A stretch of 64,000 bases of DNA. Source: Bacteroidales bacterium. GTDB lineage: Bacteria; Bacteroidota; Bacteroidia; Bacteroidales; VadinHA17. The stretch covers positions 372,001 through 436,000 of the forward strand of contig JADJLX010000003.1 in NCBI GenBank assembly GCA_016709865.1, read 5' to 3'. The notes under the pieces are model-generated. The model was not told the origin of the DNA. It ran no database searches and was given only the letters and a program-made list of their open reading frames with translations. Of the stretch, positions 2,351-25,531 are shown in pieces (position 1 is the first letter of the stretch; each line of letters starts with the position of its first letter). The position numbers and the translations under genes were made by a program.

Positions 2351-2372
2351 TTGATTTTAAGCTTAGGGTATT

Positions 2373-2402
2373 CAAAGGTATATTTTAATTCTTTGAATCA
2401 AA
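2373..2402 (-). promoter_or_regulatory. Bacteroidota-type promoter for the GH97 gene
   Basis: On the minus strand TTTG (2402-2399) is followed after 18 bp by TACCTTTG (2380-2373), matching the -33 TTTG and -7 TAnnTTTG elements. The -7 box lies about 22 bp before the ATG at 2350, implying a short leader. Confidence 0.65.
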
Positions 2403-2566
2403 ATCTTTTAAAAACACAAGGAGAAGATGCATCTCTTATAATTTAGAAAAAATATAAATAAATTCCAAACACCCCTATAAAAAAGGGGAATATAAATCAA
2501 AAAAGAATAAAAAAGACGTATGTACCCCCTAAAAAAGATATGTAAAATAAAATAAATAGTAAAATA

Positions 2567-2598
2567 TTTGATCTGACCCCCTAAATTTATTATGTTTG
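2567..2598 (+). promoter_or_regulatory. Bacteroidota-type promoter for amt-glnB
   Basis: TTTG (2567-2570), a 20 bp spacer and TATGTTTG (2591-2598) match the Bacteroidota consensus. The expected transcript start near 2604 lies so close to the TTG at 2613 that initiation at the ATG at 2640 is much more likely. The surrounding 250 bp are very AT-rich. I saw no clear sigma54 box here, although amt-glnK operons in proteobacteria often have one. Confidence 0.7.
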
Positions 2599-2639
2599 TC
2601 ACGAAAAATTAATTGCCTATTGGTAACAATAAAAATGTG

Positions 2640-7198: not shown

Positions 7199-7219
7199 AA
7201 TAACATAACACCTTCAAAG

Positions 7220-7252
7220 CCCGGGTGGTCTGCAATGATTACCCGGGTTTTT
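7220..7252 (+). terminator. Rho-independent terminator after the oxidoreductase pair
   Basis: CCCGGGT (7220-7226) pairs with ACCCGGG (7241-7247) around a 14 nt loop, followed by TTTTTC. It separates the pair from the DUF4249 gene. Confidence 0.75.
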
Positions 7253-7283
7253 CTTTACGTTTACCTCCTTAGAATTTCTTTGA

Positions 7284-8534
7284 ATGGGAGCCATAAAAAA
7301 AATTGTTTCATTTTTACTTTTGGTTGCATTCGCATCATGTATCGATCCATATATTCCGGTCCTCAATAACTATAGTTCACTTCTTGTGGTGGAGGGTCTA
7401 ATTACTAATGAAAATAAACCTTATAAGATCAAGCTTGGAAGGACAACAAGCCACGAAGAGTCTATACCTGAGATGGTTAATGATGCCAATGTCAGCATCA
7501 TTGATGGAAATGGAAGAAAGGTCACTCTTCAGCATTGTGGTGACGGATACTATAAAACTGACAGCACTTCATTTACAGGTGTAATCGGCCAGAAGTACAC
7601 TCTCCAAATTATTACAAGTGACGGAAAAGATTATAAATCCGAAGAGTCAGTTATGTTGCCTGTTGCCCCAATTGATAAAATTTATTTTGAGAAAGGTGAA
7701 GAGATTTCCGGAATATTGGGAGAGTTATTTACAGGTCTTAAGATATTTGTTAATTCATCAGTTGCACCTGAAATGAATAAATTCTTCCGCTGGTCCTATG
7801 AAGAGGATTGGAAGATCAGGATGCCAAACCCACAGGTGTACACATACGAGTACGTTAATGATACAACAATAAATTTTGAGTATGTACCTGTTATAAAATC
7901 ATTTTGCTGGAAGAAGTATCAACCGGGTGAAATAATAACAGGTTCAATCCTCCCGGGTGAAGATAATCAGATGTTAAAAAAGGAGATCAGCTTTATTGCT
8001 CCGGTTAAATCTGACAGACTGACAATTCAATATAGCATACTAGTAAAACAGTACTCAATTTCCGAGATGGAATTCAACTTTTGGAATAATCTGAAGAAAG
8101 CCGGGGAAGCCGGAGGAGATATTTTCGCTTCACAACCATTTCCTGTAATAAGTAATATTCATAATGTGAATAACAGGGAGGAACAGGTTTTGGGTTTCTT
8201 TGAAGTATCATCGGTTACCCGGAAAAGACTCTTTGTAACGTCACATGAGCTTGAGGCACTAAATCTCCCTCATTACAGATCAGCTTGCGACGAGATCCCT
8301 AAATCACCTGATGATTTTGGTACTGCAAACTTTACATGGGACGATGTTTACCACATGTATACTGATAAGGGCAAGTATGTTTTTGTAAGACCTGAAGTCA
8401 CCCCCAATACTCTTGTTGCGGGTCATGTATATGTCAGGAATCTACTTGAATTAGTTTTTGCTCCAACTGCATGTGTCGTATGCGAAACTTCCGGACTTAC
8501 AACAAAACCGGATTTTTGGATTGATCTGGAATAA
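7284..8534 (+). CDS. DUF4249-type lipoprotein, orphan
   Basis: A 416-residue protein with a lipoprotein signal (lipobox FASC near residue 19) and the start typical of DUF4249 proteins: CIDPYIPVLNNYSSLLVVEGLITNENKPY, where beta-rich Ig-like repeats follow. These proteins are common in Bacteroidota and usually sit beside a TonB-dependent receptor, suggesting a role at the outer membrane. No receptor gene is next to this one: the upstream neighbour is behind a terminator and the downstream gene is comM. It ends in a Cys-containing stretch (TACVVCETSG). Start chosen at the only nearby ATG, directly before the signal peptide. Function is unknown. Confidence 0.75.
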   Translation: MGAIKKIVSFLLLVAFASCIDPYIPVLNNYSSLLVVEGLITNENKPYKIKLGRTTSHEESIPEMVNDANVSIIDGNGRKVTLQHCGDGYYKTDSTSFTGVIGQKYTLQIITSDGKDYKSEESVMLPVAPIDKIYFEKGEEISGILGELFTGLKIFVNSSVAPEMNKFFRWSYEEDWKIRMPNPQVYTYEYVNDTTINFEYVPVIKSFCWKKYQPGEIITGSILPGEDNQMLKKEISFIAPVKSDRLTIQYSILVKQYSISEMEFNFWNNLKKAGEAGGDIFASQPFPVISNIHNVNNREEQVLGFFEVSSVTRKRLFVTSHELEALNLPHYRSACDEIPKSPDDFGTANFTWDDVYHMYTDKGKYVFVRPEVTPNTLVAGHVYVRNLLELVFAPTACVVCETSGLTTKPDFWIDLE

Positions 8535-11553: not shown

Positions 11554-11668
11554 AAAGAGCATAAATATCATAAAAGATTTTTGGCATGATATTTTCTATA
11601 TATTTGTTGCAGCTGTTAAAATATTAACAGTTGATTGTTAAAAGAATATTTACTTAAAACTAAGGATT

Positions 11669-12205
11669 ATGATATTAAAGAAAGGACTTTTAATGATTTG
11701 TGTTGCATTGCTTCTGGGAAGCGTTGCTTCAGCTCAGAATTTCAAGTATATTGGTTCTGATAAGTGTAAACTCTGCCATAATAAGCCAGCTACAGGCGAC
11801 CAGTATGGTAAATGGCTTAAAGATCCACACTCACAGGCTATGAAATCACTTAGCAGTCAGGCTTCACTTGATTATGCTAAGAAAAACGGTATAGCTGACC
11901 CTGCAAAAGACGCCAAATGTCTGAAGTGCCATTCTACTTTTGACAGTGTTGATCCCAAGATGAGAAGCACCATAACTCAGGCCGAAGGTGTTGGATGCGA
12001 ATCATGTCACGGACCAGGCAGTGCATATAAATCTCCTGCTGTAATGAAAAGCAGAGAGCAGTCAATGAAGATGGGACTGGTTCTTCCTACAAAAGAATTA
12101 TGCGTGAAATGCCATAATAAGGAGAATCCTTTCCACAAAGAATTTAATTTCGAGACTTTCTCCGCAAAAATCGCTCATCCTAATCCTGCTGCAAAGAAAA
12201 GCTAA
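11669..12205 (+). CDS. Periplasmic tetraheme cytochrome c (c554-like)
   Basis: A 178-residue protein with a Sec signal (cleavage near SVASAQ). It has four CxxCH haem sites: Cys33-His37, Cys84-His88, Cys110-His114 and Cys145-His149. Additional His residues (for example in DPHSQAMK, CHGPGS and NPFHKEF) could be distal ligands. The spacing and the CHGPGS element resemble the cytochrome c554 family that carries electrons in the periplasm. A TATATTTG box at 11599-11606 is a possible -7 element, but the nearest TTTG lies only 15 bp upstream. The gene sits alone before an 820 bp gap; the NrfD operon begins beyond it. Service as the periplasmic partner of that operon is inferred from proximity only. 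Confidence 0.9.
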   Translation: MILKKGLLMICVALLLGSVASAQNFKYIGSDKCKLCHNKPATGDQYGKWLKDPHSQAMKSLSSQASLDYAKKNGIADPAKDAKCLKCHSTFDSVDPKMRSTITQAEGVGCESCHGPGSAYKSPAVMKSREQSMKMGLVLPTKELCVKCHNKENPFHKEFNFETFSAKIAHPNPAAKKS

Positions 12206-12233
12206 GGATATTCGCAGAGAATCAAATTATAAG

Positions 12234-12269
12234 GCCTTTGCTCTGATTAGAGCAAAGGCTTTCTTTTTT
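12234..12269 (+). terminator. Rho-independent terminator after the tetraheme cytochrome
   Basis: A perfect 11 bp stem (GCCTTTGCTCT / AGAGCAAAGGC) with a 4 nt loop is followed by TTTCTTTTTT, ending cytochrome transcription before the next operon. Confidence 0.93.
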
Positions 12270-12270
12270 A

Positions 12271-12735
12271 TAATCCCTTATAACTCAAAATCCCTGTAAT
12301 ATTCGGAGGCGCCATGACTTGTGGTAAGAAATACGGAAGTGTTGTAAGGTATATGCAAGACTTTCTCCCCACCTTTATAACAATACCTGTGTTATTCCGA
12401 GTCTCCATAAAATTATATTGTACATCAAGTATTATGACAAACGGCTCTGAAAGAGCCCAATATGAATAACCCCCGGTGTAACCCTAATCTTTATACACAT
12501 CTTTTTTGTTAAGTTCCTGCTATGTGTCACCAAGTTACCTGTCATCCCTGAGCGGTAGTGAGGGATCTCCTTATCTCTTTAAGCAATTGATTAAAAAAGA
12601 AATGTGATGGCAACCACGGATTTTTCATATTTAGCCACTTCGTGGCATAGAAATCTGCCAGGATTCTCCATTAAATTATTTACCTGTTCCTTCAGAAATA
12701 ATTTGAATAAATTATTTCCTTCTTCTTTCAATTAA
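12271..12735. other. Non-coding stretch holding repeat fragments
   Basis: No convincing gene is present. It contains small hairpins (GGCTC/GAGCC at 12443-12457, GCCAC/GTGGC at 12635-12647). It also holds a segment at 12485-12570 that matches parts of the palindromic element at 60.8-61.1 kb: the 42 bp ending in AGTTCCTGC, then GTCATCCCTGAGC and GAGGGATCTCC. I read it as a place where intergenic repeats have accumulated and decayed. Confidence 0.6.
12485..12570 (+). repeat. Partial copy of the nested palindromic intergenic element
   Basis: Positions 12485-12526 match 60790-60831 with few differences (TAATCTTTA ... CTTTTTTGTT ... AGTTCCTGCT). Positions 12540-12570 match the right outer arm of the other copies (TGTCATCCC, a variable GCG segment, GAGGGATCTCC). 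The central GGGAAAGAAGTGGCGA palindrome is absent, so this is a deletion derivative or a half-element. Confidence 0.7.
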
Positions 12736-12743
12736 ATCTAAAA

Positions 12744-12862
12744 AACACGAAAAGTGTTGTATAAATCATCAAGTGTTGAATAAATACACACATGGTTTAA
12801 CCCCCTTAATAATCACAACATTGAGAGTATAGAAAATATACACTGTATATTAATTCAACACT
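12744..12862 (+). promoter_or_regulatory. Repeated AGTGTTG boxes, candidate enhancer (UAS)
   Basis: AAGTGTTGTATAAAT (from 12752) and AAGTGTTGAATAAAT (from 12771) are direct repeats 19 bp apart. The first is also half of a dyad AACAC-N5-GTGTT (12744-12758). An inverted copy, ATTCAACACT, lies at 12853-12862. They sit about 75-190 bp before a sigma54-type promoter, the usual position for NtrC-class activator sites. Binding by the regulator at 19327 is inferred. Confidence 0.45.
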
Positions 12863-12935
12863 ATTGTAAAATTAATATATTGAAATAAATTGACTAACAA
12901 ACAGAAATACAGATATATAGAGGGTTGAAAATTAT

Positions 12936-12952
12936 TTGGCACCATTGTTGAA
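12936..12952 (+). promoter_or_regulatory. Candidate sigma54 (-24/-12) promoter of the NrfD/GcvH-like operon
   Basis: TTGGCAC-N5-TTGAA matches the sigma54 consensus TTGGCAC-N5-TTGCA except that the -12 GC is GA. GG and the -12 G have the correct 10 bp spacing. It lies 74 bp before the ATG at 13026. The operon it would drive encodes a sigma54-dependent activator (GAFTGA motif). The -12 mismatch lowers certainty. Confidence 0.5.
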
Positions 12953-13025
12953 AACCTCAAATTCAGATATTAAAATATGGCCAGAACACAGAGATTTTTA
13001 ACAAAGACAACAAATAACTAAAGCA

Positions 13026-14741
13026 ATGAAACGAGCAATCACATTTTTAACATGCTTATTAATAGTAGGTTACAGCTGTATCGCTGGAAACGCACCGTTA
13101 AGTGAGAGCAGATCCCTTTCGTCTGACTCAATTATGGTCCTCAGTACCCCTGATTTGTATAATATCTCAACAAAGTGGGCTGCGGAATACAATAAATTAA
13201 ATACCGGGACAAAAATCAGTGTTTTTTCAGTTACTGATGCCGGTATGGAAGAAACCCTTTCCACAAAAGGAAAAATCGGGTTCATATCAGGTGATGTCCC
13301 CTCTTTCCTGAATGAGGAACCATTTTCAAAGCTTGTTGTTGGCAGAGATGTTCTGATTCCTGTAATAAACTCAAATAACCCCCTTCTTAAAGAAATAGAT
13401 CTTAAAGGGATCTCTCCGGAGAACCTGCTTTTATACCTTAATCGCAGCGAAGGAAGAAACTGGGGAACACTGTTAAGTGGTTCACAAAGTACTCCTGCAA
13501 ATTTCTATTTTGTCGATGATAAAACAATCTCCGATGGAATAGCAGGCTTTTTAGGGAAACCGGAATTGCAGATTGCTGGTATTAAAAAAGAAAACAGCAG
13601 TGAATTGCTGGCTGCCATTCAAAAAGATCCGTACGGCATTGGATTCTGCAAAATGGTAAATGTTATAGATTTTCAGAATCAGGCACTAATTGAAAACATT
13701 AGTCTGATGCCTATCGACAGGAATAATAACGGAGTGCTGGATTACAATGAGAATATCTATACCGATTTAAACAATTTTTCAAGAGGCGTATGGATAGGAA
13801 AATATCCCAGATCATTATTCAGTAATATTTATTCGGTCACTTTAAAACAGCCAATAAGTGAAAATGAGTCAGCATTTCTGAAATGGGTCCTTAACGAAGG
13901 GCAACAGTTTCTTTATTCAAACGGATACTCTGATCTGTTGATCAGTGAAAGGGCCACTAATACCGATAAATTGTATGAAGCACAGGTTTATGCAGGAGCA
14001 GATGCTGAGAATAAATCTGTATTTGGTACTATTCTGATATTTACTCTCTGCCTGGTGCTGGCAGGCTTCTTGGCTGATTCCGCAATCAGGTATTTCAGGA
14101 GGGATAAAACACTGCAGACTACCTCATCACCGATACCTAATCCTGTACTAAATACCAACGGGCTGAGTGTCCCCGGAGGAATCCTTTTTGATAAGACTCA
14201 TACTTGGGCATTTATGGAACAAAACGGATATGTTAAAGTCGGAATTGATGATTTCCTTCAGCATATCACAGGAACTATAACAAGGATCAAAATGAAAAAG
14301 GAAGGGGACAAAGTCAAGAAGGGTGATCAGATTCTTTCAATCATTCAGAACGGGAAACAGCTGAACCTCTATGCTCCGGTCTCAGGAACTATAAGAGAGA
14401 TAAACACCATGCTTGACACAAACGGATCAGTAGTTAATACTTCACCATATAACGAAGGATGGGTATATAGAATGGAGCCCTCAAACTGGCACAGGGAAAA
14501 CCAGCTGCTGTTCATGGCTGAAAAGCAGAAGGAGTATATTAAAAATGAATTCATCAGGCTGAAAGATTTCTTAGCCACAGCCCTTGGAACAGATAAGGAA
14601 ATGTATGCCCAGGTTATACTTCAGGATGGAGGTGAGCTTGTCGATAACACTCTGTCGAATCTCGGACCTGAAGTATGGGAAGACTTTCAGTCGAAATTTA
14701 TCGACCCGTCAAGACAGATATGGTTTCATGAATTATTTTAG
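13026..14741 (+). CDS. PstS-like binding domain - membrane helix - GcvH-like fusion protein
   Basis: The 571-residue protein is an uncommon fusion. A Sec signal is followed by a periplasmic domain (about 35-325) resembling PstS-type substrate-binding proteins. Inside it an EF-hand-like loop (Asp231 to Glu242, DRNNNGVLDYNE) suggests Ca2+ binding. A membrane helix (331-353) precedes RYFRRDK, which by the positive-inside rule places the rest in the cytoplasm. There a GcvH-like lipoyl fold follows (about 383-490: THTWAFM, DDFLQHITG, GDKVKKGD, APVSGTI, GWVYRMEPSNW). A lysine (Lys444, IQNGKQL) lies close to where GcvH carries lipoate. The last 60 residues (VILQDGGELVDNTLSNLGPE) recur in the protein at 16899. 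It starts a same-strand run of eight genes. Ligand and function are unknown; it is not glycine-cleavage H protein. Confidence 0.75.
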   Translation: MKRAITFLTCLLIVGYSCIAGNAPLSESRSLSSDSIMVLSTPDLYNISTKWAAEYNKLNTGTKISVFSVTDAGMEETLSTKGKIGFISGDVPSFLNEEPFSKLVVGRDVLIPVINSNNPLLKEIDLKGISPENLLLYLNRSEGRNWGTLLSGSQSTPANFYFVDDKTISDGIAGFLGKPELQIAGIKKENSSELLAAIQKDPYGIGFCKMVNVIDFQNQALIENISLMPIDRNNNGVLDYNENIYTDLNNFSRGVWIGKYPRSLFSNIYSVTLKQPISENESAFLKWVLNEGQQFLYSNGYSDLLISERATNTDKLYEAQVYAGADAENKSVFGTILIFTLCLVLAGFLADSAIRYFRRDKTLQTTSSPIPNPVLNTNGLSVPGGILFDKTHTWAFMEQNGYVKVGIDDFLQHITGTITRIKMKKEGDKVKKGDQILSIIQNGKQLNLYAPVSGTIREINTMLDTNGSVVNTSPYNEGWVYRMEPSNWHRENQLLFMAEKQKEYIKNEFIRLKDFLATALGTDKEMYAQVILQDGGELVDNTLSNLGPEVWEDFQSKFIDPSRQIWFHELF

Positions 14742-14762
14742 AATCAATAAAATATAAATATT

Positions 14763-15626
14763 ATGGCTCTGAACAGAAAAGACTTTTTTAAAGTACTGGG
14801 CGTAACAGGAGTTACACTGGCTATCGGGAAAGAGGCCGGGGCAGTACCAAAAAAGGAAGAAAGTATTGAATTCAAAGGAATTCTTTACGACTCAACAAGA
14901 TGCGCTGGCTGCCAGACCTGTGAGTCAGCATGTGCTGAGGCAAACGGCTTGCCTTCACCCACTGCAGCTATTGAAGCAGGTGTTATCAGAAATACTGATG
15001 AAGTTCACCGGACGGTAGTTAATGCATTCAATTCAAGTAAGGGTGAAACCTATTTGAAAAAGCAGTGTATGCATTGCAACGAACCAGCCTGTACTGCTGC
15101 CTGCCTTACACAGGCCATGTATAAAACAAAGGAGGGAGCTGTGATCTGGAGAGGAGATAAATGCATGGGTTGCCGCTATTGCATGGTTTCCTGCCCGTTT
15201 GATGTTCCGAAATTCGAATATCATAGTGCAAATCCGAAGATAGAAAAATGCAATATGTGTTACAGCAGGCTGGGTGAAGGTAAAATACCGGCATGTGTTG
15301 AGAATTGTCCTGCTGAAGCTTTGATGTATGGGCCAAGGCGCGACCTGATTAAGGAGGCGAGGAAAAGAATTGTCGAAAATCCCGATCAGTATGTCGATCA
15401 TATTTACGGCGAACATGAAGCAGGGGGAACAGGTTTTCTTTATATCGCAGGTGTCCCTTTTGAAGAGCTTGGGCTGAATACTTCCATTCAGAAGGAGTCA
15501 TATCCATCCTTATCGAAAGGGTTCCTGTACAGCGTCCCGACAATATTTGTTCTGTGGCCGGCCATTTTGCTGGGTATCCGTGAATCAACCAAAAATAATC
15601 ACCTCAAATCTGATGAGAATGAATAG
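14763..15626 (+). CDS. HybA/DmsB-type 4x[4Fe-4S] ferredoxin subunit, membrane-anchored
   Basis: A 287-residue electron-transfer protein. Four cysteine groups bind four [4Fe-4S] clusters: CAGCQTCESAC (from residue 47), CMHCNEPACTAAC, CMGCRYCMVSCPFDVP and CNMCYSRLGEGKIPACVENCP. The N-terminus (NRKDFFKVLGVTGVTLAIG) resembles a Tat signal with Arg-Lys instead of Arg-Arg, so a periplasmic location is likely. A C-terminal hydrophobic segment (VPTIFVLWPAILLGI) would anchor it, as in HybA. It lies 21 bp after the fusion gene and overlaps the NrfD gene by 8 bp, indicating a complex of the two. No molybdopterin or hydrogenase catalytic subunit is adjacent, so the usual partner of such a subunit is missing. 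Confidence 0.9.
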   Translation: MALNRKDFFKVLGVTGVTLAIGKEAGAVPKKEESIEFKGILYDSTRCAGCQTCESACAEANGLPSPTAAIEAGVIRNTDEVHRTVVNAFNSSKGETYLKKQCMHCNEPACTAACLTQAMYKTKEGAVIWRGDKCMGCRYCMVSCPFDVPKFEYHSANPKIEKCNMCYSRLGEGKIPACVENCPAEALMYGPRRDLIKEARKRIVENPDQYVDHIYGEHEAGGTGFLYIAGVPFEELGLNTSIQKESYPSLSKGFLYSVPTIFVLWPAILLGIRESTKNNHLKSDENE

Positions 15627-16848
15627 TCTAAACTACACAATAGCAAAAGACAACGATGGTAAATCCATCTGGAAATTCCTTGCAGGCGAAATGAAACCCA
15701 GAGGGAGTTTCCTCACACCTTTTAATATAATATCCATTCCCATAATGATTCTGGGACTGGTGTTGATTGTAATCCGCTTCTGGAAAGGACTAGGCTCTGT
15801 TACAAACCTGACACAGGAGGTACCCTGGGGCTTGTGGATTGGATTTGATGTTGTTACCGGTGTTGCATTTGCAGGGGGCGCTTATGTACTGACATTCATG
15901 GTGTATATTCTCAACATGCAGAAATATCACTCAATTGTCAGGATCACAGTGCTTAACGGATTTCTGGCATATGTATTCTATGCGGGAGCCCTGCTTCTCG
16001 ACCTGGGAAGACCATGGAATGTCATAAACCCGATAATTGGCAACAGTTTCGGAACAAGCTCAGTATTGTTTCTGGTAGCATGGCACTTCCTGCTCTACAT
16101 GATTGCCCAGCTCATTGAGTTTTCACCGGCTGTTGCAGAATGGCTTGGTGCCAGGAAAGCAAGAAAAATTCTCTCGGGAATGACTGTTGCAGCTGTCATT
16201 TTCGGTATCACGCTTTCAACTCTGCACCAATCTGGTCTGGGAGCTTTATACCTGATGGCTAAAGACAAAATTCATCCTCTCTGGTACAATGAATTCATTC
16301 CGATTATGTTTTTTGTTTCCAGTATCTTTGCCGGTCTCTCCATGGTAATCTTCGAAGGATCAATAAGTCACAGGGTCTTTTTCAATCAGATAAGCGAAGA
16401 AAACCATAAATCTCACAACAGTATTATAATAGGTTTGTCAAAGATCTGCGCAGTTGCGATGTTTGCCTATTTCTTTCTTCAGGTTCTCGTATTCGTGCAT
16501 GGTAAGCGCTGGGACCTTCTTTTTACACCAATGGGTTATTGGTATCTGCTTGAGATGTTTGGTTTTGTAATGTTTCCGATGCTGTTGTTTTTCTACAGTT
16601 ACCGGAGGAAAAACATTAACCTAGTTAAGGTAGCAGCAATACTGACAATGCTTGGAGTAATACTTAACAGACTCAATGTAACTGTTATTGGTTTCAAATG
16701 GGACGCAGCGATAAGATACATTCCTACATGGATGGAACTGGTTGTTACCCTGGCAGTTATATTTACTGAGATTTGGATATTCAGATGGGTAGTCAACCGT
16801 ATGCCGGTACTGAGGGAATCACCTTCGTGGGTAAATGATAAACATTAA
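15619..16848 (+). CDS. NrfD/HybB-type quinone-interacting membrane subunit
   Basis: A 409-residue polytopic protein with about ten hydrophobic helices, matching the NrfD/PsrC/HybB family that exchanges electrons with membrane quinones. Recognisable blocks are PWGLWIGFDVVTGVAFAGGAY near the start, LLDLGRPW, STLHQSGLGALYLM and a C-terminal GFKWDAAIRYIPTWMELVVT. The ATG at 15619 overlaps the ferredoxin stop (ATGAATAG); an ATG at 15613 and a longer in-frame start at 15547 are less likely because they extend into the ferredoxin gene. With the preceding ferredoxin it forms the core of a quinone-linked redox complex. The electron acceptor or donor is not encoded by a recognisable catalytic subunit here. 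Confidence 0.92.
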   Translation: MNSLNYTIAKDNDGKSIWKFLAGEMKPRGSFLTPFNIISIPIMILGLVLIVIRFWKGLGSVTNLTQEVPWGLWIGFDVVTGVAFAGGAYVLTFMVYILNMQKYHSIVRITVLNGFLAYVFYAGALLLDLGRPWNVINPIIGNSFGTSSVLFLVAWHFLLYMIAQLIEFSPAVAEWLGARKARKILSGMTVAAVIFGITLSTLHQSGLGALYLMAKDKIHPLWYNEFIPIMFFVSSIFAGLSMVIFEGSISHRVFFNQISEENHKSHNSIIIGLSKICAVAMFAYFFLQVLVFVHGKRWDLLFTPMGYWYLLEMFGFVMFPMLLFFYSYRRKNINLVKVAAILTMLGVILNRLNVTVIGFKWDAAIRYIPTWMELVVTLAVIFTEIWIFRWVVNRMPVLRESPSWVNDKH

Positions 16849-16898
16849 TATTAACAGGTTTGGGCAAGCATTAATGCTCATACACAAAACATAATACA

Positions 16899-17609
16899 AT
16901 GGACGGATTCAGCTACAATAACATTTTTGAGACAAAAGGAATTGAATATCTGATTATAATCGCATTCCTTATTTTAATAATACCTTTCTGGATGGTTATA
17001 AACAAACAGTCCGGAGTTAAGGTGAATATAAAGAAAGCAATTGGAGCACTTACAGCAGGTATCCTGAGGATACCTAAGGGACTCTTTTACAGCAGCAACC
17101 ATACATGGGCGCATTTGCAGAAATCTGGCAATGCCCTGGTTGGTCTCGATGATTTCCTGATGCATATCACCGGCGAGGTCAGGTTCAGAAACCTGAGAGA
17201 CCGCGGCGACTATATTCAAAAAGGAGAGATAATGGCAGAAGTCATTCAAAATGGTAAGACTCTTAAAATTGCATCTCCCTTATCAGGCGAAATTGTTGAT
17301 CTGAATTCATTGCTTGATGAGAATCCCGGTATTCTGAATGAAGATCCATACGGCAACGGCTGGGTGTACAGTATAAAACCGGATGACTGGAAAAAGGAAA
17401 CCAGTACTTACTTTCTGGCTGATGAGGCTGTTGACTGGTCTAAAAAGGAACTGTTAAGATTTAAAGATTTCATGGCACATTCTGTGAAAAAATACAGCCC
17501 TGAAACATCGATGGTAATCCTGCAGGATGGCGGCGAATTATGTGACCGGCCACTTTCAGAACTACCTGAACCGGTATGGCAGGATTTTCAAAAATCTTTT
17601 TTAAATTAG
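16899..17609 (+). CDS. Membrane-tethered GcvH-like protein
   Basis: A 236-residue protein: short N-terminus, one membrane helix (about 18-36, YLIIIAFLILIIPFWMVI), then a Lys-rich segment predicting a cytoplasmic C-terminal part. The GcvH-like domain (about 65-165) contains NHTWAHLQ, DDFLMHITGEV, GDYIQKGE, SPLSGEIVDLNSLLDENP and NEDPYGNGWVYSIKPDDW, close to real H proteins. Lys120 (IQNGKTL) lies one residue off the exact register of the lipoyl-lysine. The C-terminal stretch MVILQDGGELCDRPLSELPE parallels the end of the fusion protein at 13026. No gcvP, gcvT or lipoate ligase is near. A role as a lipoyl-type carrier tied to the NrfD complex is inferred; annotation as gcvH would mislead. Confidence 0.8.
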   Translation: MDGFSYNNIFETKGIEYLIIIAFLILIIPFWMVINKQSGVKVNIKKAIGALTAGILRIPKGLFYSSNHTWAHLQKSGNALVGLDDFLMHITGEVRFRNLRDRGDYIQKGEIMAEVIQNGKTLKIASPLSGEIVDLNSLLDENPGILNEDPYGNGWVYSIKPDDWKKETSTYFLADEAVDWSKKELLRFKDFMAHSVKKYSPETSMVILQDGGELCDRPLSELPEPVWQDFQKSFLN

Positions 17610-17643
17610 AACTTTGGAAATATGAACTAATCACAGGCATAAA

Positions 17644-19314
17644 ATGGGTTTGTCAGGTAACAGAACACCCAATGATAATAAGTTAAAATCAATACTTGTA
17701 AAGTATTTTAGTTTTCGTTCTTCAATATACAGCAGGGTAGTCTATATCATAACTGTATCATCTGTTATTCTGTTTGTCTCTTTCGGTATAATATTCAGAT
17801 CGGTATACGAACAGAATCTTAATACTGTTATCCGGCAAAACGGGAACAACGTGGGCTCTATTGTTGAGGGATCTTTATATCATTCCATGCTGCAGAATGA
17901 TAAGAGCACACTTCAGAGTACCCTTGACATAATTAATACAATGTCGGGGATCGACGATGTGAATATGTATGATGCAAAAGACAGCCTTGTTTATTCCTCG
18001 TTCTCATCAGATATAACAACACATACCGATCCGAACTGTAAAAGCTGTCATCCCGATATCCAGTCGATGTTTCCGAGGAATGAAAAATCCTACAGGATTA
18101 TCGACCTCGACAGTGAATGCAGCATGAACAAGAATGATAATAGTCAGCGGCATCTGTTGATAAGATCTCCTATTCTGAATGAAAAATCCTGTTATACCGC
18201 TTCATGTCACGCCCATCCGGAGAGCGATGTTGTTCTTGGATCACTAATTATCAAACTTCCGCTTTCCGACCTGGATGAAGCAGTAGCCAGATCTTCTGCA
18301 AAATTTTATTTGCTTGCAACAATTATAACCATCCTTCTCGTCTTCTCACTGATTTTGTTTACAAGGAAAAATATAAAAGATCCTTTAAATGAGATTATTA
18401 AAGCCAGTGTTGCCGTTTCCAATGGTAATAAAAACACCCGACTGGAAATCAAACCGAACCAGCTTAACGATATGAGGATGGTTTCTCAGGCATTTAATAA
18501 TATGCTCGATAATCTTCAGTCAGCTACCGAAGAGTTGCAGAACTGGTCACAGCAGCTTGAATATAAAGTCCAGAAGAAATCTGAAGAATTGGGAGCTGCC
18601 CAGAATGAATTGATACACATTGAACGGATTGCCTCGCTTGGCAAGTTATCATCGTCGGTAGCTCACGAGATAAATAATCCTCTTTCCGGCATACTAGTAT
18701 ATACTAAGCTTATATACAAGCAATTGAGCGACCCTGAGCTTTATGCTTCCAAAAGAGATTCGATGTTAAAGCATCTTAAACTCATTGAAAATGAGACAAA
18801 AAGATGTGGTGAAATTGTAAAGGGACTTCTTGATTTTTCGAGAAAAGAGCAGGAAGATTTTGAGTCAAAGCATCTGCATAAAATCCTTCAGGAGACATAT
18901 GAGCTGATGACACATCCGATAAAAATCGCCAACATAAACTTCTTAACAAACTTCACAGCAAAATCTGACCTTATTTTCTGCAGTCCAAACCAGATAAAAC
19001 AGGCGTGTGTAGCTATCCTTGTTAATGCCTCTGAGGCGGTTCTTGAAAATGGCGAGATAATAATTTCAACAAGTAATCCGGATAGTGATACTATTAAAAT
19101 AGATATTTCAGATAACGGAATCGGTATTCCGGAGGATGATCTTCCACACATCTTTGAACCATTCTTTTCAACAAAGCAGGATACCTCCGGAATAGGACTG
19201 GGTCTTGCAATTGTTCATGGCATTGTTAAGAGCCATAATGGCACTATTGGGGTTAAATCGGAACTTGCAAGGGGAACCACAATATCCATAACACTCCCTG
19301 TTATAAGGACTTAA
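17644..19314 (+). CDS. Sensor histidine kinase with two haem-c type motifs in the periplasmic domain
   Basis: A 556-residue kinase with membrane helices near residues 32-54 and 222-244. The periplasmic domain between them carries CKSCH (132-136), a canonical haem c site, and CYTASCH (183-189), a CX4CH variant. A HAMP-like segment ([19 protein letters not shown]) and a coiled coil lead to the HisKA helix ([13 protein letters not shown], phospho-acceptor His341) and the ATPase domain ([26 protein letters not shown]). It would sense redox state, NO, O2 or another haem ligand, or simply electron flow. The response regulator starts 12 bp downstream, a clear cognate pair within the redox operon. 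Confidence 0.9.
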
Positions 19315-19326
19315 GAAGATTAAACT

Positions 19327-20667
19327 ATGACAAAAAAGATTTCGATATTAATTGTTGACGATGAAGAATCAGTACGAGATTCATTGTTCAACTGGTTCAT
19401 AGAGGACGGATATCATGTGGCAGTTGCAGAAAATGCAAACAAGGCCCTGTCGATGCTTGAATCTGAGAGTTTTGATATCATTCTTGCCGACATCAAGATG
19501 CCCGGAATGGATGGACTGGAGATGCTCCGGAGGATCAAAATACTAAAATCAGAGTCAATAGTCATTGTTATGACTGCTTTTGCAACTGTTGATACTGCTG
19601 TTCAGGCACTTAAAGACGGAGCATTTGATTATGTAACAAAACCATTCGATCCTGACGACCTGTCTCATCTGATCAGAAATGCTTCAAAACAGATAACTCT
19701 TTCTGAAGAGAATGAGAGCCTTCGTACAAAAGTCCTTACACTCGAGAATGTTGAAGATCTGATTGGAGAAAGTGAGCCAATGAAGAGGGTACTGAAGGAT
19801 ATTGAAAATGTGGCACAATCTAATTCCTCGGTTGTTATTACTGGTGAGAGCGGAACTGGCAAAGAGCTGGTAGCGAAGGCTATACATTCTAATTCATCAC
19901 GTAAGTTCTTTCCCCTTGTGAGTGTCCATTGCGGTGCATTAACTGAAAGTCTGCTTGAGAGCGAACTGTTCGGACATGAAAAAGGGGCATTTACTGGAGC
20001 TATGTATAACCGGAAAGGCCGGTTTGAAATGGCCGATAACGGAACAATATTTCTTGATGAGATTGCAACGATATCGATGAAAATGCAGATAGATCTTCTG
20101 CGCGTTCTCGAGACTAAGAAATTCACCAGGGTTGGTGGCAACAAAGAGATCTCCTCAGATTTCAGGGTAATTTGCGCAACAAACAGAGATCTTAAAAGTC
20201 TGGTTGAAAAAGGATTATTCAGAGAGGACCTTTTTTACCGTCTTAATGTTGTAAATATTTTTGTGCCCCCTTTGCGCGAGAGAATTGAAGACATCCCTTT
20301 ACTTGTTGATTATTTTATCAGGAAGTATTGCCTGTCGATGAATAAGCCTCCGTTAACAATCGATTCCTCCGCATTAAAACGGCTGGAGGAGTTTAATTTC
20401 CCGGGCAATGTCAGAGAGCTTGAGAATATGATCGAACGTGCTATTGTTGTTGGTAATGGAAAGAAGATCACACTGAAAGACCTTCCATTGGAAAAAACAA
20501 TGATAACCAGCTCTGTTGAGAGCCTTGATGACCTTGAGAAATCACATATTTATATGATATTGAATAAATACAGCTGGAACATCTCCAGGGCAGCAAAAGC
20601 CCTCAAGGTTGACCGGGTAACTCTCTATAATAAAATCAGCAGGTACGGATTAAAGCCTAAAGAATAG
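19327..20667 (+). CDS. NtrC-class sigma54-dependent response regulator
   Basis: A 446-residue activator: receiver domain (VDDEES, phospho-acceptor Asp55 in ADIKMPGMDG, Lys in TKPFD), AAA+ domain (Walker A GESGTGKE, sigma54-contact loop GAFTGA, Walker B TIFLDEI, arginine-finger region FREDLFYRLNVV) and a C-terminal Fis-type helix-turn-helix (ISRAAKALKVDRVTLYNKI). The intact GAFTGA loop shows that it acts with sigma54. It is the partner of the haem-binding kinase immediately upstream. The sigma54-type promoter at 12936 and AGTGTTG boxes before the operon are its likely target, giving autoregulation. Confidence 0.95.
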   Translation: MTKKISILIVDDEESVRDSLFNWFIEDGYHVAVAENANKALSMLESESFDIILADIKMPGMDGLEMLRRIKILKSESIVIVMTAFATVDTAVQALKDGAFDYVTKPFDPDDLSHLIRNASKQITLSEENESLRTKVLTLENVEDLIGESEPMKRVLKDIENVAQSNSSVVITGESGTGKELVAKAIHSNSSRKFFPLVSVHCGALTESLLESELFGHEKGAFTGAMYNRKGRFEMADNGTIFLDEIATISMKMQIDLLRVLETKKFTRVGGNKEISSDFRVICATNRDLKSLVEKGLFREDLFYRLNVVNIFVPPLRERIEDIPLLVDYFIRKYCLSMNKPPLTIDSSALKRLEEFNFPGNVRELENMIERAIVVGNGKKITLKDLPLEKTMITSSVESLDDLEKSHIYMILNKYSWNISRAAKALKVDRVTLYNKISRYGLKPKE

Positions 20668-20693
20668 TAATAGCCGATACTCTTAATTCTTAA

Positions 20694-21236
20694 ATGGATC
20701 TGCAAAATATAACATTGATCTCATTCGGCTATTTCGAGGATGGTTTTCTTGAGAATATCGCCGCTACAGTGACCCACGAATTACATTACCCCGTAATTAT
20801 TAAGGAGGGCCATATTGATATCACTGAATTTTACGATCCCGGACGTCGTCAGTATAATGGAAACAAGCTGCTTAAGGAGGTTGATTCTATGTATGCTTCC
20901 GATTCATGTAAGACTATTGGCCTATTTAACGTCGATCTTTTTATTCCTATTCTTACATATATTTTTGGACAGGCATTTCTCTCGGGCAGGACTGGTATAG
21001 CCTCATTGTACAGGTTTAGCAATGAGCGTTATGGAATGGGTGCTGATGATAAGCTGGCTGCTGAACGCTTCAGAAAAGAGATTATCCATGAACTGGGCCA
21101 TACCTTAGGATTAATACATTGTCATGTTTCAACCTGTGTTATGCGATCCAGCACATATGTTGAAGACATAGACCTTAAAAGTGTCAGCCTGTGCAATAAA
21201 TGCAGGAGTGATGTGAGCAATAACCGATTATCCTGA
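20694..21236 (+). CDS. amzA: Archaemetzincin family zinc metalloprotease
   Basis: A 180-residue predicted metalloprotease. The signature is complete: the HExxHxxGxxH metal-binding motif (HELGHTLGLIH, from His132) followed by Cys, four residues, Cys-Val-Met and, 16 residues later, CNKC, which in archaemetzincins binds a second zinc. No signal peptide is seen, so it is cytosolic. The family is patchily distributed in archaea and some bacteria and has no settled substrate. It follows the sigma54 regulator by 26 bp and precedes the SiaB-like gene; its link to the redox operon is by position only. Confidence 0.9.
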   Translation: MDLQNITLISFGYFEDGFLENIAATVTHELHYPVIIKEGHIDITEFYDPGRRQYNGNKLLKEVDSMYASDSCKTIGLFNVDLFIPILTYIFGQAFLSGRTGIASLYRFSNERYGMGADDKLAAERFRKEIIHELGHTLGLIHCHVSTCVMRSSTYVEDIDLKSVSLCNKCRSDVSNNRLS

Positions 21237-21303
21237 TTTTTGTTGGTAAAATAATCAATTTGTACTAATTTTAACTTCTCTAAAAATATCTGATCTTCTT
21301 TGC

Positions 21304-22419
21304 ATGGATCTGACCCGCCGTATTCGAGACAAAATGATGAAAGAACGCCTTATGTTTGTATACAGGGGCGTTGTTACAACTGAAAACTCGGTCCCTCTGC
21401 TTATGCTTCTGGAGAAAGAGATGGAGAATTCGGAATTTGGATTCGTGGGCAGAAAACGGCTTTTCATGTTTGTACTTGAAAGTCTGCAGAATGTTACCAG
21501 ACACAGCACTCAGAACCAGCACGCCGATATGTCACTTGTTGTCTATTCAAAATCAGGGAATGGATATACGGTTACCACCGGAAATGTGCTCCCAACATCA
21601 GCCATCAAGGACCTCAAATTAAAGCTCGATGAGATCAATAGTCTGGAAACCAAAGAGATAAGAAATGTTTACAGGCAGATGCTCAGCACCTCTGAATTCA
21701 GCAGCAAGGGGGGGGCCGGTCTGGGCCTGATAGAGATGGCTAAAAAGACAGGCAATAAGCTTGACTACGACTTTGTTAAACTTGACAACGATTACTCATA
21801 TTTTATTCTTAGCAAAACTGTCGATTCAGGTGGTGTCGGATCGCATTTCGGTACAAATGAAAAACCATTTCATGGTAAATCAGTCTCACAGCTTGAAAGA
21901 CTGATGGCCGAGAACAGTGTTTACCTCATCTGGTCGGGACATATCTCCCCGGATGTGGGAAAAGAGGTTCTCTCATTTACTGAGACAAAACTATCTGAAG
22001 ATGATGTTGAGTCAAATCTGAAGAAAAGAGTGTTCAGCATTCTTGTCGAAATACTCGAGAATGTAGCCAAGTATAGTCCGGGAAGGGAGCCTGAAGAAGA
22101 ATTTGGAATGCCGGTGGCAATGATCAGGCTGATTGATAAGGTATTCTCTCTCACAACAGGTAACCTGATCCTTAATGATAAGGTTGAACATCTTAAGGAA
22201 AAACTTGACACTATTAATAAATACGATAAGATTGGACTGAAAGAACTCTTCAGAAAATCCCTCTCTGGTCAGACTATAACCACTGATAGCACAGGTAATA
22301 TGGGGCTTATCGATATGGCCCGGAAATCGGGCAGCAAACTGGTATATCAGTTTGAAAAGGTGAACGACACCTATTCTTATTATACTCTTACTGTAAAGGT
22401 TGAGGACAGGGGAGATTAG
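21304..22419 (+). CDS. Tandem SiaB-like (DUF6272) GHKL-type ATPase/kinase
   Basis: The 371-residue protein consists of two similar halves of about 180 residues. Each has an N-box-like helix (FVLESLQNVTRHS; LVEILENVAKYSPG), a TTGNxxxxxxxxxLKxKLDxIN block (TVTTGNVLPTS; SLTTGNLILND) and a Gly-rich C-terminal motif (GGAGLGLIEMAKKTGNKLDY; TGNMGLIDMARKSGSKLVY). This matches single-domain SiaB-type proteins, which phosphorylate STAS partners (SiaC) in Pseudomonas. The second half has a weaker glycine motif, so one half may be regulatory. No SiaC-like gene is in view. The 3' end overlaps the convergent lpxH gene by 4 bp. Confidence 0.7.
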   Translation: MDLTRRIRDKMMKERLMFVYRGVVTTENSVPLLMLLEKEMENSEFGFVGRKRLFMFVLESLQNVTRHSTQNQHADMSLVVYSKSGNGYTVTTGNVLPTSAIKDLKLKLDEINSLETKEIRNVYRQMLSTSEFSSKGGAGLGLIEMAKKTGNKLDYDFVKLDNDYSYFILSKTVDSGGVGSHFGTNEKPFHGKSVSQLERLMAENSVYLIWSGHISPDVGKEVLSFTETKLSEDDVESNLKKRVFSILVEILENVAKYSPGREPEEEFGMPVAMIRLIDKVFSLTTGNLILNDKVEHLKEKLDTINKYDKIGLKELFRKSLSGQTITTDSTGNMGLIDMARKSGSKLVYQFEKVNDTYSYYTLTVKVEDRGD

Positions 22420-23173: not shown

Positions 23174-24331
23174 TTAATTTAACAACTGATCAAGTTTTAT
23201 CTGCAATGATTTACCGTGAAGATTCGTTCCGATTATCTTTCCTTCTTTGTCGAAGAGATAGTTTGTAGGTACGGCTTTTACATTAAACAGAACCACATTT
23301 ACCGGATTTGCCGGGTCATCCTCCCTGGTGCTTATCCAGGGCAACTCATCGAATTTGACGGCTGATTTCCAGGCATTTTCATCTTCATCAATGTTTATCT
23401 GGTAGATCTCAAAGCCTTTATTTTTATAAATTTTATAGTATTGTTTCAGCTGAAGGTTTTCATTTACACATTCCTGCGATCTTATTGACCAGAAAGTTAA
23501 AAGGACATATTTGCCTTTCAGAGAGGAGAGAGCTATCCTTTTTCCATCAGTGTTTTTCAGATCAGGGTCGAGCTTGGTAGGAGGGAGATCTTTTGCAATC
23601 TCTTCGAGTTTGCTGACATACATATTATTCATCTCCTTGGAAAAGTCCCTTGACAGTGCCTGAACATGTTTGGACTTAGGATAATGCAATGAAAGAGAGT
23701 CAGTTACAATTTTCATAAATTGCAGATCCTTAGGATCGTAAAGAACATAGGCTTCAGGGCTGAACCTCTGGTAAACTGCCTTAATAGAAGCAAGGGAACC
23801 TGTATTTTTAATGATGAAATCAATATTTTTCATCCTTTGTTCCATCAAAACTTTATTATACTTCTCCTCAAGGAGAGGTCCGGCAACATCGAATCCTGGT
23901 TCCTTTGATGCTTTAGCATAGACAGTACTAAGCGAGTCAAGTTTTCTCTTTGTATCTGCTAGGGTGTTGTCGAGATACTGAAGTTTTTCCGATCCTTCCG
24001 ATCCTTCGACACTGTATTTTTCAAACAGGGTTTTTCCTTCAAACAGGAGTTTTATCTTTTCACCTGGTTCAGCAAGAATCGTAATAAAGTCTGATTCAGA
24101 GAAGCCAATCTGGTAAAAATCAGCGTCAGTCGCTTTAACACTGAACCTGAATTCTCCCTTACTGTTTACCTTTGCCGAGTCAATAAAAACAAGGTTGTCA
24201 ACTTCCAGCCTGTTTAAATAGATCTGCTTTTTGGTTTCTCCTTTTATTACTCCTGTTACAGAAAATTTTGACTTATCCTGACATGATGCCACAATAATAA
24301 TTAAGGTCAGGAGAAATAGAATCCTTTTCAT
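23174..24331 (-). CDS. DUF4369-thioredoxin-fold lipoprotein with degenerate active site
   Basis: A 385-residue paralogue of the next gene. From the ATG at 24331 it opens with a typical lipoprotein signal (MKRILFLLTLIIIVASC). A TTG at 24361 gives a longer frame, but its ten extra residues before the signal are unlikely. An N-terminal DUF4369-type beta domain (VTGVIKGETKKQIYLNRLE) is followed by a helical spacer and a TlpA/AhpC-like thioredoxin fold (LKGKYVLLTFW, EIYQINIDEDENAW, PTNYLFDKEGKI). The redox motif WCxxC is replaced by RSQEC: the first Cys is lost and the second kept. It can hardly act as a dithiol oxidoreductase; a one-Cys or binding role is possible. Confidence 0.85.
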   Translation of the reverse strand: MKRILFLLTLIIIVASCQDKSKFSVTGVIKGETKKQIYLNRLEVDNLVFIDSAKVNSKGEFRFSVKATDADFYQIGFSESDFITILAEPGEKIKLLFEGKTLFEKYSVEGSEGSEKLQYLDNTLADTKRKLDSLSTVYAKASKEPGFDVAGPLLEEKYNKVLMEQRMKNIDFIIKNTGSLASIKAVYQRFSPEAYVLYDPKDLQFMKIVTDSLSLHYPKSKHVQALSRDFSKEMNNMYVSKLEEIAKDLPPTKLDPDLKNTDGKRIALSSLKGKYVLLTFWSIRSQECVNENLQLKQYYKIYKNKGFEIYQINIDEDENAWKSAVKFDELPWISTREDDPANPVNVVLFNVKAVPTNYLFDKEGKIIGTNLHGKSLQIKLDQLLN

Positions 24332-24364
24332 TAAAGTTAGTTTTACCGTTTTTTCTTTCAAATA

Positions 24365-25531
24365 TTATTGTTTGAAGATTTCTGCAAGCTTTTCCTGTAA
24401 TTTCTCTCCTCTGAGGTTTGATGCTATAATCTTACCATCCTTATCGAGAAGAAGATTTGTAGGGATGGATTCAATTTTATAAAGAGGAACAACTACCGAA
24501 TTCCAGTATTGAATATCGCTGACATGGATCCATCTTTCCAGTTTGTCATCTTTTATACCTTTCATCCAGGCTTCTTTGGTTTTGTCGAGAGATACCTGGT
24601 AAATCTCAAATCCCTTTTTATGATAGAGATCGTACGCTTTCACGAGATTAGGGTTTTCCATTCTGCAAGGACCGCACCATGCTGCCCAGAAATCAAGAAG
24701 GACTATTGATCCTCTTGTTGACGAAAGTTTAATTGTATCTCCGTTTGGCGAGGGAAGAGTTATCTCAGGAGCTTCGGCACCGCCACCTGTAACCGGAGGA
24801 ACTTTCATATTGGCAGGCATACCTGCTATGAATTCTTTTACCTGAGTGTGGAGCATAGTAACTGGCTCATATTCAGGATACGTGCTGAAAAGAGATGAAT
24901 CAACTTTCATAAAATATTTCATGTCCTCAGTAGGATTGAGCACATATACATTTGGTGCTACCTGCTGGTATAATGCAATAAGGCAAACCAATGATGAGAT
25001 GTTCTGGTCGATATAGTTTTTAGTGTAACCGTTGATCTCAGTAAGGTAAATGTTGGCGAGACTGTCGAGTGATTCAATAATTTTTGGCAGCTGCGGATTT
25101 TCCGCATTCTGCATATAGATGTTATTGAGGCTGGTCAGTTTATTAATCGTCTTTCTGAGATTTACATTATACTCAGCCATTAGTTCCGTCCCCTTTGAAC
25201 CGGTTACTGACCCGGGAAAGTTCAATGAATCATATTTTGCCTCGACAGACACTTTTTCCCCTGGTTCAACAAGCATGGTCAGGAAGTTTTCATCGCTGAC
25301 TTTTATGAGATAAAATGCAGGGTTTTTAATATCTATCTTAAAATCAAAAGTACCTTTGTCTGAAATCACCACTGAATCAACAGTTGCAAGATTATTTGCT
25401 TTCAACTCATCAAGAAATACATACGCACCTTTAACCGGGTTAGTAAGAGTCCCCGAGATCTGAACCGAATTGTTTTTACATCCGGCAAATAAGATGATCG
25501 CAAATAGTAAAAGAAATAGCTTTCTGTACAT
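24365..25531 (-). CDS. DUF4369-TlpA-like thiol-disulfide oxidoreductase lipoprotein
   Basis: A 388-residue lipoprotein (lipobox FAGC near residue 18). The N-terminal DUF4369-type domain (ISGTLTNPVKGAYVFLDELK) and spacer are followed by a thioredoxin domain with intact WCGPC (LLDFWAAWCGPCRMENP), cis-Pro segment (SIPTNLLLDKDGKI) and TlpA-type insert. It would reduce or shuffle disulfides in the periplasm, for instance in cytochrome maturation, although no substrate is visible. The downstream paralogue lacks the first active-site Cys, suggesting duplication and division of labour. It begins the minus-strand run ending with lpxH. Confidence 0.9.
   Translation of the reverse strand: MYRKLFLLLFAIILFAGCKNNSVQISGTLTNPVKGAYVFLDELKANNLATVDSVVISDKGTFDFKIDIKNPAFYLIKVSDENFLTMLVEPGEKVSVEAKYDSLNFPGSVTGSKGTELMAEYNVNLRKTINKLTSLNNIYMQNAENPQLPKIIESLDSLANIYLTEINGYTKNYIDQNISSLVCLIALYQQVAPNVYVLNPTEDMKYFMKVDSSLFSTYPEYEPVTMLHTQVKEFIAGMPANMKVPPVTGGGAEAPEITLPSPNGDTIKLSSTRGSIVLLDFWAAWCGPCRMENPNLVKAYDLYHKKGFEIYQVSLDKTKEAWMKGIKDDKLERWIHVSDIQYWNSVVVPLYKIESIPTNLLLDKDGKIIASNLRGEKLQEKLAEIFKQ

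Follow-up and report, generated by a model that had tools for sequence, protein, structure and literature searches.

What kind of system is formed when an NrfD-type quinone subunit and its ferredoxin are encoded side by side with two proteins that resemble GcvH? The question is raised by a locus in a 64,000-nucleotide stretch of DNA from a Bacteroidales bacterium (GenBank assembly GCA_016709865.1, contig JADJLX010000003.1, positions 372,001 to 436,000), the whole of which is called the window here. Seven genes on the + strand, at 13026-21236 and with intergenic gaps of at most 50 bp, encode in this order a fusion of a periplasmic binding protein (PBP) domain, a transmembrane (TM) helix and a GcvH-fold domain (PBP-TM-GcvH, named PBPH), a ferredoxin (HmcB), an NrfD protein (HmcC), a TM-GcvH protein (HmH), a putative diheme histidine kinase, a sigma54 regulator, and an archaemetzincin. 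From the comparison of sequences, we consider it moderately probable that this operon encodes an Hmc-type complex for electron transfer between quinone and periplasm, in which GcvH-fold proteins devoid of lipoylation serve as docking or regulatory subunits, and whose synthesis is induced by a haem-binding sensor.

Conservation of the operon

A genome collection was scanned with an alignment of HmH, and 47 related loci were retrieved; the scan patterns were drawn from close relatives, and this number is less than a full census. Forty-four of the loci are in records named as Bacteroidota. Locus L047, a contig of 3.7 kb with part of the operon, is binned as Actinomycetota, probably a binning error. 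With a threshold of 150 bits, all seven genes were found in order in 32 of the 47 loci, small extra open reading frames (ORFs) being tolerated in two of them. Ten of the remaining 15 are broken by a contig end inside the operon (L005, L016, L017, L025, L027, L029, L031, L033, L041, and L047), the HmH gene of L030 is masked by an ORF on the opposite strand, and one locus lacked only the archaemetzincin at this threshold. True exceptions were L022, where the kinase part is missing, L003, where the kinase has no adjoining regulator, and L042, described below. The best protein match of PBPH, 99% identical, comes from a metagenome-assembled genome named as Bacteroidales. The HmH gene directly follows that of HmcC in 44 of the 47 loci, even though the identity of HmH to the window protein falls to 44% (L046), indicating that the gene order is conserved far beyond chance.

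A previous interpretation made from the letters of the window (the sequence-only reading) had proposed a membrane redox island, and had staked this proposal on a gene order shared with relatives. The order was indeed recovered, in full in the 32 loci mentioned above, and every gene it had named was found on the + strand where it had been placed. The island is best described as one conserved redox operon, and the tetraheme cytochrome that had been counted within it is only an optional neighbour; this gene adjoins the operon in one of the 47 loci (L010) and was rejected as a member. The gene list was also incomplete, as the archaemetzincin went unmentioned, yet it is a conserved member. This protein passes the curated family score (148.6 versus 145 bits), and the HELGH motif, the following HC and the CxxC pair are present in at least 97% of 36 sequences. 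The statement that the NrfD-ferredoxin core has no molybdopterin, hydrogenase or large cytochrome gene is true of the operon: no multihaem cytochrome was found in the operon of the window or of the 47 loci, and the only multihaem ORFs flagged were the tetraheme one of L010 and, at the distant end of L030, one with 10 haems. Many Bacteroidales share this tightly conserved operon with its own regulator and predicted promoter.

The GcvH-fold domains of PBPH and HmH

Both PBPH and HmH have the GcvH fold, as judged by their strong similarity to GcvH, and their scores with TIGR00527 (GcvH), 75.3 and 78.3 bits, are under the cut-off of 115.85. The two proteins also have a C-terminal region in common, with the motifs LQDGGEL and W.DFQ, and the shared C-terminal domain described earlier is real. 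The sequence-only reading took them for membrane-tethered carriers of the lipoyl type. The tethering of both proteins was supported, and the position of the helix and the positive residues suggest that the GcvH-fold domains face the cytoplasm; the carrier function was not supported. When the best 120 of 1575 HmH relatives and the best 120 of at least 2402 PBPH relatives were aligned, the column of the lipoyl-lysine was occupied by Gly in 120 of 120 PBPH and 112 of 120 HmH relatives (232 of 240), and an invariant Lys was observed one residue after this column in all 240. Control sequences, six genuine GcvH proteins parsed from 12 stretches, all showed E-A-V-K at the lipoyl column. In the structure model of HmH (predicted local distance difference test, pLDDT, 80), the hairpin is formed by strands 111-117 and 120-125, which makes N118-G119 the turn and puts K120 beyond it. 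Lys occupied the column in only 2 of 41 members of the wider family, a count that depends on the alignment to within one residue; in some members, there is no Lys in the vicinity.

Lipoylation needs a Lys at the tip of the hairpin turn. Because the Lys is shifted past the turn and the column is rarely Lys, the barrels of PBPH and HmH are read as predicted non-lipoylated GcvH folds. Two observations would suit the opposite explanation, in which the two domains would carry lipoyl groups and thereby link the quinone pool with thiol, C1 or sulfur chemistry in the cytosol: the strong similarity to GcvH and a Lys beside the lipoyl site that never varies among the 240 close relatives. We regard this explanation as highly improbable, with Gly at the lipoyl column and Lys displaced by one, K120 past the N118-G119 turn in the model, and a residue other than Lys in 39 of the 41 wider members (again dependent on the alignment by a residue). 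Moreover, LbpA, a GcvH-like sulfur carrier, keeps the lipoyl Lys, and most of these proteins keep two Cys, according to the accessible part of PMC6067878. A lipoyl carrier identity was thus rejected on the shifted Lys, the wider-family column, the genuine GcvH control, and the turn in the model.

The profile of HmcD matched HmH with E ≤ 1 in 35 of 46 members (best 1.1e-4), a weak similarity that lies in the TM helix. Because this similarity is repeated and HmH is placed after HmcC, it suggests that HmH is an HmcD-like helix to which a barrel was added. In PBPH, the EF-hand-like loop DxNx[ND]xxxDxxE was found in 38 of 41 sequences, and the PstS-like domain gave a weak match to the PstS profile (22 bits) and E values of 1e-5 to 1e-7 with PstS chains; given this weak match, phosphate was set aside as a candidate ligand of the PBP domain. 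The barrel is also weakly similar to the RnfC/NqrA barrel-sandwich profile.

The HmcB/HmcC membrane core

Among the NCBIfam profiles listed, those of Hmc were the best for HmcB and HmcC (322 + 411 bits), versus 235 + 250 bits for HybA/HybB, and the QrcC and QrcD profiles scored far lower on the same proteins (63 and 75 bits). Residues D77, Y118 and S148 of the window HmcC align with D58, Y99 and S129 of Escherichia coli HybB; the accessible text of PMC13059093 reports D70, Y110 and S138 of QrcD as essential and gives the HybB equivalents. Among 41 other close HmcC homologues, the Asp is present in 37 and both the Tyr and the Ser in all 41, and the three residues are kept together in 15 and 6 homologues of two sister groups. 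HmcC is, in consequence of these proton-path and quinone-site residues, a candidate quinone subunit. A search of the PDB with the NrfD protein gave no match. For HmcB, which ends in a hydrophobic tail, 40 of 41 sequences have the GCRYC motif with its Tyr, and 33 of 41 have the Tat-like motif R[RK]xFxK.

Sister systems in Bacteroidota

At least 39 of 296 Bacteroidota genomes (G001 included) had a listed match to this GcvH-fold family, with E ≤ 7e-22 and an open frame of 218 residues or more, and most of the other matches were plain GcvH. We viewed 26 loci (L048-L073), of which L048 is of the window type, and HmcB or HmcC was in view in 23 of them, the exceptions being L051, L057, and L072. Two sister versions were recognized. 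The first is composed of a TM-GcvH protein, HmcB without Tat signal, HmcC, a second degenerate GcvH protein, a kinase, a sigma54 regulator, and an archaemetzincin (L054, L056, L059, L060, L061, L068, and L073; in L069 no second GcvH was called). In L063, L065 and L067, the core is found without kinase, regulator or archaemetzincin in the stretch viewed. Near its N terminus, the second degenerate GcvH-like protein (L054, 10433-11335; L061, 11084-11833) has a Cys-rich motif, KLCDxxFxCxxCPxDxA, that may be a site for a metal or an Fe-S cluster.

In the second version (L062, L064, L066, L070, L071, and L073), HmcB and HmcC are accompanied by a 13-haem cytochrome and a similar kinase, together with two fusion proteins, one receiver-GcvH and one TM-receiver-GcvH. 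The fusions of L071, at 6243-8229, join PF00072 to PF01597, and one of them has an N-terminal hydrophobic anchor. The best 120 of 4699 relatives of the TM-receiver-GcvH protein all carry both Pfam domains, and where their taxa are named, these are Melioribacteraceae/Ignavibacteria or plain Bacteroidota. Since receiver domains are fused to the GcvH barrel, control by phosphorylation is suggested in the sister systems. It is conceivable, although we find it doubtful, that throughout Bacteroidota the lipoate-free GcvH barrel has been turned into a subunit devoted to docking or gating in quinone-linked Hmc-type complexes, and that in Melioribacteraceae it is driven by the fused receiver, the haem-sensing kinase thus controlling a respiratory complex directly, by phosphorylation of one of its membrane subunits.

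Candidate electron partners

By counts of CxxCH, 14- to 19-haem cytochromes and a tetraheme cytochrome follow the second-version core in L062, L066 and L071, in addition to its 13-haem cytochrome, and a tetraheme gene is inside the operon of L061. In G010 and G012, which have the window-type operon, the tetraheme and 19-haem genes are neighbours. These arrangements agree with a narrower form of our reading, a respiratory exit in which HmcBC would reduce periplasmic multihaem cytochromes of the tetraheme c554 and 19-haem types, perhaps towards extracellular acceptors. This form is an appreciable possibility that we hold tentatively, because the cytochromes have no strong match in several operon genomes, and the strong homologue of the tetraheme protein (E ≤ 1e-40), found in 8 of 14 genomes, is on another contig in 7 of those 8. 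A conserved HmcA-like partner elsewhere in the genome was also considered and set aside, as the matches to a 13-haem query were only weak. In four operon genomes, ORFs of 927 to 932 residues with 19 CxxCH motifs were observed (L101-L104; the query has 646 residues); they are perhaps fused to the b561-like gene that follows the 19-haem gene in L071.

Sensor, promoter and regulator targets

The kinase shows CxxCH in 44 of 44 sequences and CxxxxCH in 43 of 44, both between its two hydrophobic helices, in agreement with the claim that a kinase with haem motifs is paired here with a sigma54 regulator. Upstream of the operon, both a predicted -24/-12 promoter and enhancer-like sites, palindrome-like, 19 bp long and named upstream activating sequences (UAS) 1 to 3, are present, and the latter are candidate sites of the sigma54 regulator. 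UAS 2 is the only match in the window with up to three mismatches, where 0.02 were expected. In 42 upstream regions, including that of the window, the strict form of the promoter was found in 35, and 96 UAS sites were detected versus 1.6 in shuffled sequence; four regions had no UAS site at the threshold. Because the UAS consensus came from these same 42 regions, the phasing of the sites, with distances measured from the best promoter match (Table 1), is the stronger evidence. No clear common version of the UAS was seen upstream of 18 sister genes. A weak sigma54-like match of the tetraheme gene, at 11581, is within chance (7 one-mismatch matches, 6.6 expected).

The UAS pattern with up to three mismatches was then searched in 14 genomes, using the reversed pattern as a control. 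There were 59 forward matches versus 10 in the control, and 10 of the 59 are at the operon. Of the other 49, 46 fall in a stop-to-stop frame of more than 100 codons and none has a second UAS at the operon spacings; in three, a second site of lower quality is found 66, 67 and 81 bp away, and in L130 and L145 a fair promoter match is found within 100 bp of a UAS-like site. With UAS and promoter combined in one pattern, 27 matches were obtained, versus 10 in its control; eight of the 27, from 8 of the 14 genomes, are at the operon. A wider regulon was rejected, since the UAS matches away from the operon are mostly inside frames and lack a second site at the operon spacings. The excess over the control is only partly accounted for. 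No convincing further target was found in the 14 genomes, where the operon's own sites were visible in only 9, so that weaker targets can be missed.

These data bear on whether HmcBC is mainly a sensor. It would then monitor the quinone pool by passing electrons from menaquinol to the haems of the kinase, and the PBP domain would supply a second input. The kinase and regulator beside the core in most loci, the receivers fused to GcvH proteins in sister systems, and the lack of a conserved enzyme partner all point in this direction. A pure sensor, however, would lack an output, because the only convincing target of the regulator is the operon itself (with the limit of the scan given above), and the core occurs without a kinase in the stretches viewed of L063, L065 and L067. 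We judge a device of this kind to be unlikely, and favour an effector complex, since with a dedicated promoter the complex is itself what the sensor controls as its output.

Proposed mechanism

In the effector complex, HmcB would be a periplasmic ferredoxin with a membrane tail and HmcC the NrfD quinone subunit, from which a path for protons would lead to the cytoplasm; together, they would transfer electrons between menaquinone and a redox partner in the periplasm, the gene of which lies outside the operon. PBPH and HmH would place their non-lipoylated barrels and common C-terminal domain on the cytoplasmic face, where they may dock to HmcC and either set the state of the complex or report on it. 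The PstS-like domain of PBPH would be in the periplasm, its gene occupying the position that HmcA has in hmc. The kinase, through its two c-type haem motifs, may sense the periplasmic redox state, and the sigma54 regulator would act at the three phased sites to switch on this operon, the only convincing target found.

Several observations weigh against this proposal. The invariant Lys beside the lipoyl position is not explained by it. Both core proteins are below the curated Hmc cut-offs (322 versus 420 and 411 versus 550 bits), and the scores listed for the HmcD profile, 12.7, 16.9 and 19.4 bits, are under the cut-off of 34, with no match in L046 or in three sister proteins tested. The key Asp of HmcC is replaced by Asn in 4 of the 41 close homologues, and changing S129 of HybB had no significant effect on H2 oxidation, according to the accessible text of PMC13059093. 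By eye, HmcB has no Tat signal in L049, L052-L056, L059-L061, L063-L065, L067-L069, and L073, where it keeps the C-terminal membrane tail and positive residues. As for the electron partner, none of the cytochromes or enzymes checked was seen to be conserved with the window-type operon: the tetraheme cytochrome is not strong in all operon genomes (8 of 14), the 13-haem HmcA-like query gave only weak matches in 6 of 14 (best E 2.9e-6), and a nearly complete 19-haem cytochrome was found in 4 of 14, with one further match that is partial. Finally, in L042 (a 3.5 kb contig) PBPH is directly followed by kinase sequence at 23-3547, with no HmcBC between, possibly a stripped-down version or an assembly fault.

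If the proposal is true, the NrfD-containing energy complexes gain a new composition, and the GcvH fold acquires a function at the membrane that does not involve lipoyl groups. Two-component control of a quinone complex would become open to test in a group represented here almost entirely by metagenome-assembled genomes, and the sigma54 regulatory signature would offer a handle for finding the system and seeking its inducing condition.

Features of the window and neighbouring genes

The coordinates of the operon, its upstream sites and two neighbouring genes are listed in Table 1. The accessory neighbour has two SiaB/DUF6272 stretches in tandem. Further downstream, at 23174-25531 on the - strand, two adjacent look-alike proteins resemble, by eye, thioredoxin lipoproteins of the TlpA type.

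Table 1. Operon, upstream sites and neighbouring genes, with positions in the window (HTH, helix-turn-helix).
Feature	Position	Strand	Evidence or remark
UAS 3, candidate site, 19 bp, palindrome-like, 163 bp upstream of promoter	12754-12772	+	sites at 161-165 bp in 28/42 regions
UAS 2, candidate site, GTGTTGAATAAATACACAC, 144 bp upstream of promoter	12773-12791	+	sites at 143-146 bp in 16/42 regions
UAS 1, candidate site, 74 bp upstream of promoter	12843-12861	+	sites at 73-76 bp in 31/42 regions
sigma54-type -24/-12 promoter, TTGGCACCATTGTTGAA	12936-12952	+	sole zero-mismatch match in window
PBPH, 571 residues: signal peptide, PstS-like domain with EF-hand-like loop, TM (residues 332-350), GcvH-fold domain, shared C-terminal domain	13026-14741	+	PF01597 E=1.1e-26
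HmcB/HybA-type ferredoxin, 287 residues, Tat-like signal, C-terminal hydrophobic tail	14763-15626	+	NF045715 322 bits, cut-off 420
HmcC/NrfD quinone-type membrane subunit, 409 residues, ATG at 15619	15619-16848	+	NF045714 411 bits, cut-off 550
HmH, 236 residues: TM helix with weak HmcD similarity, GcvH-fold domain, shared C-terminal domain	16899-17609	+	PF01597 E=4e-23
Sensor histidine kinase, two c-type haem motifs, CxxCH and CxxxxCH	17644-19314	+	motifs
sigma54-dependent response regulator: receiver, AAA+, Fis HTH	19327-20667	+	domain profiles
Archaemetzincin (M54), metalloprotease-like, conserved last gene	20694-21236	+	NF033823 148.6 bits, cut-off 145
Tetraheme cytochrome, c554-type, neighbour rather than conserved member	11669-12205	+	820 bp upstream of operon, past its regulatory region
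Tandem SiaB/DUF6272 protein, accessory neighbour	21304-22419	+	kept in 4/47 related loci

Comparison with known systems

The closest likeness is to Hmc (HmcABCDEF) of Desulfovibrio vulgaris, with which the operon shares the succession of genes for an HmcB-like ferredoxin, an HmcC-like NrfD protein and a third protein that has a single TM helix. Regulator genes, rrf1/rrf2, are likewise part of hmc, according to the accessible part of PMC10924467. The window operon differs in having PBP and GcvH modules instead of the HmcA cytochrome, HmcE and HmcF, in its additional kinase, sigma54 regulator and archaemetzincin, and in scores under the Hmc cut-offs. HmcE and HmcF were searched for in the operon only, and neither was found there. 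The same ferredoxin/quinone pair is found in the tail-anchored HybA-like/HybB-like pairs of hydrogenase 2, octahaem cytochrome modules and Fe-Fe hydrogenase loci, which are partnered with cytochromes (Hmc included) or hydrogenases; the accessible part of the same source names no GcvH, PBP or archaemetzincin partner, and "glycine cleavage" is absent from its main text (PMC10924467). Likewise, no GcvH partner is named in the accessible part of a survey of NrfD-like subunits (PMC8076601).

The menaquinone reductase QrcABCD shares the quinone and proton-path residues, via the HybB equivalences, but its QrcC and QrcD profiles scored low, as given above, and the operon has no QrcA- or QrcB-like gene. 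With the lipoyl proteins GcvH and LbpA, PBPH and HmH have the fold in common, and differ from them by the tether, the extra C-terminal domain, and a lipoyl-Lys position that is not conserved. The likeness to the RnfC/NqrA barrel-sandwich is confined to the weak profile similarity of the barrel, with no other Rnf- or Nqr-like gene in the operon. In the library of papers searched, none has NrfD together with GcvH, or a response regulator, GcvH and a multiheme cytochrome together, and this operon was not named in the titles and abstract openings listed, a negative that is limited to this library and these searches. The sequence-only reading had offered the system as something undescribed, and this applies to the GcvH-tethered composition, for which no published account was found, rather than to the complex as a wholly new type. 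Because defining features of Hmc (curated scores of HmcB and HmcC, and HmcA, HmcE and HmcF in the operon) were tested and not found here, the operon is filed outside Hmc proper; it is best classified as a variant of the Hmc/HybAB kind and a relative of the known Hmc.

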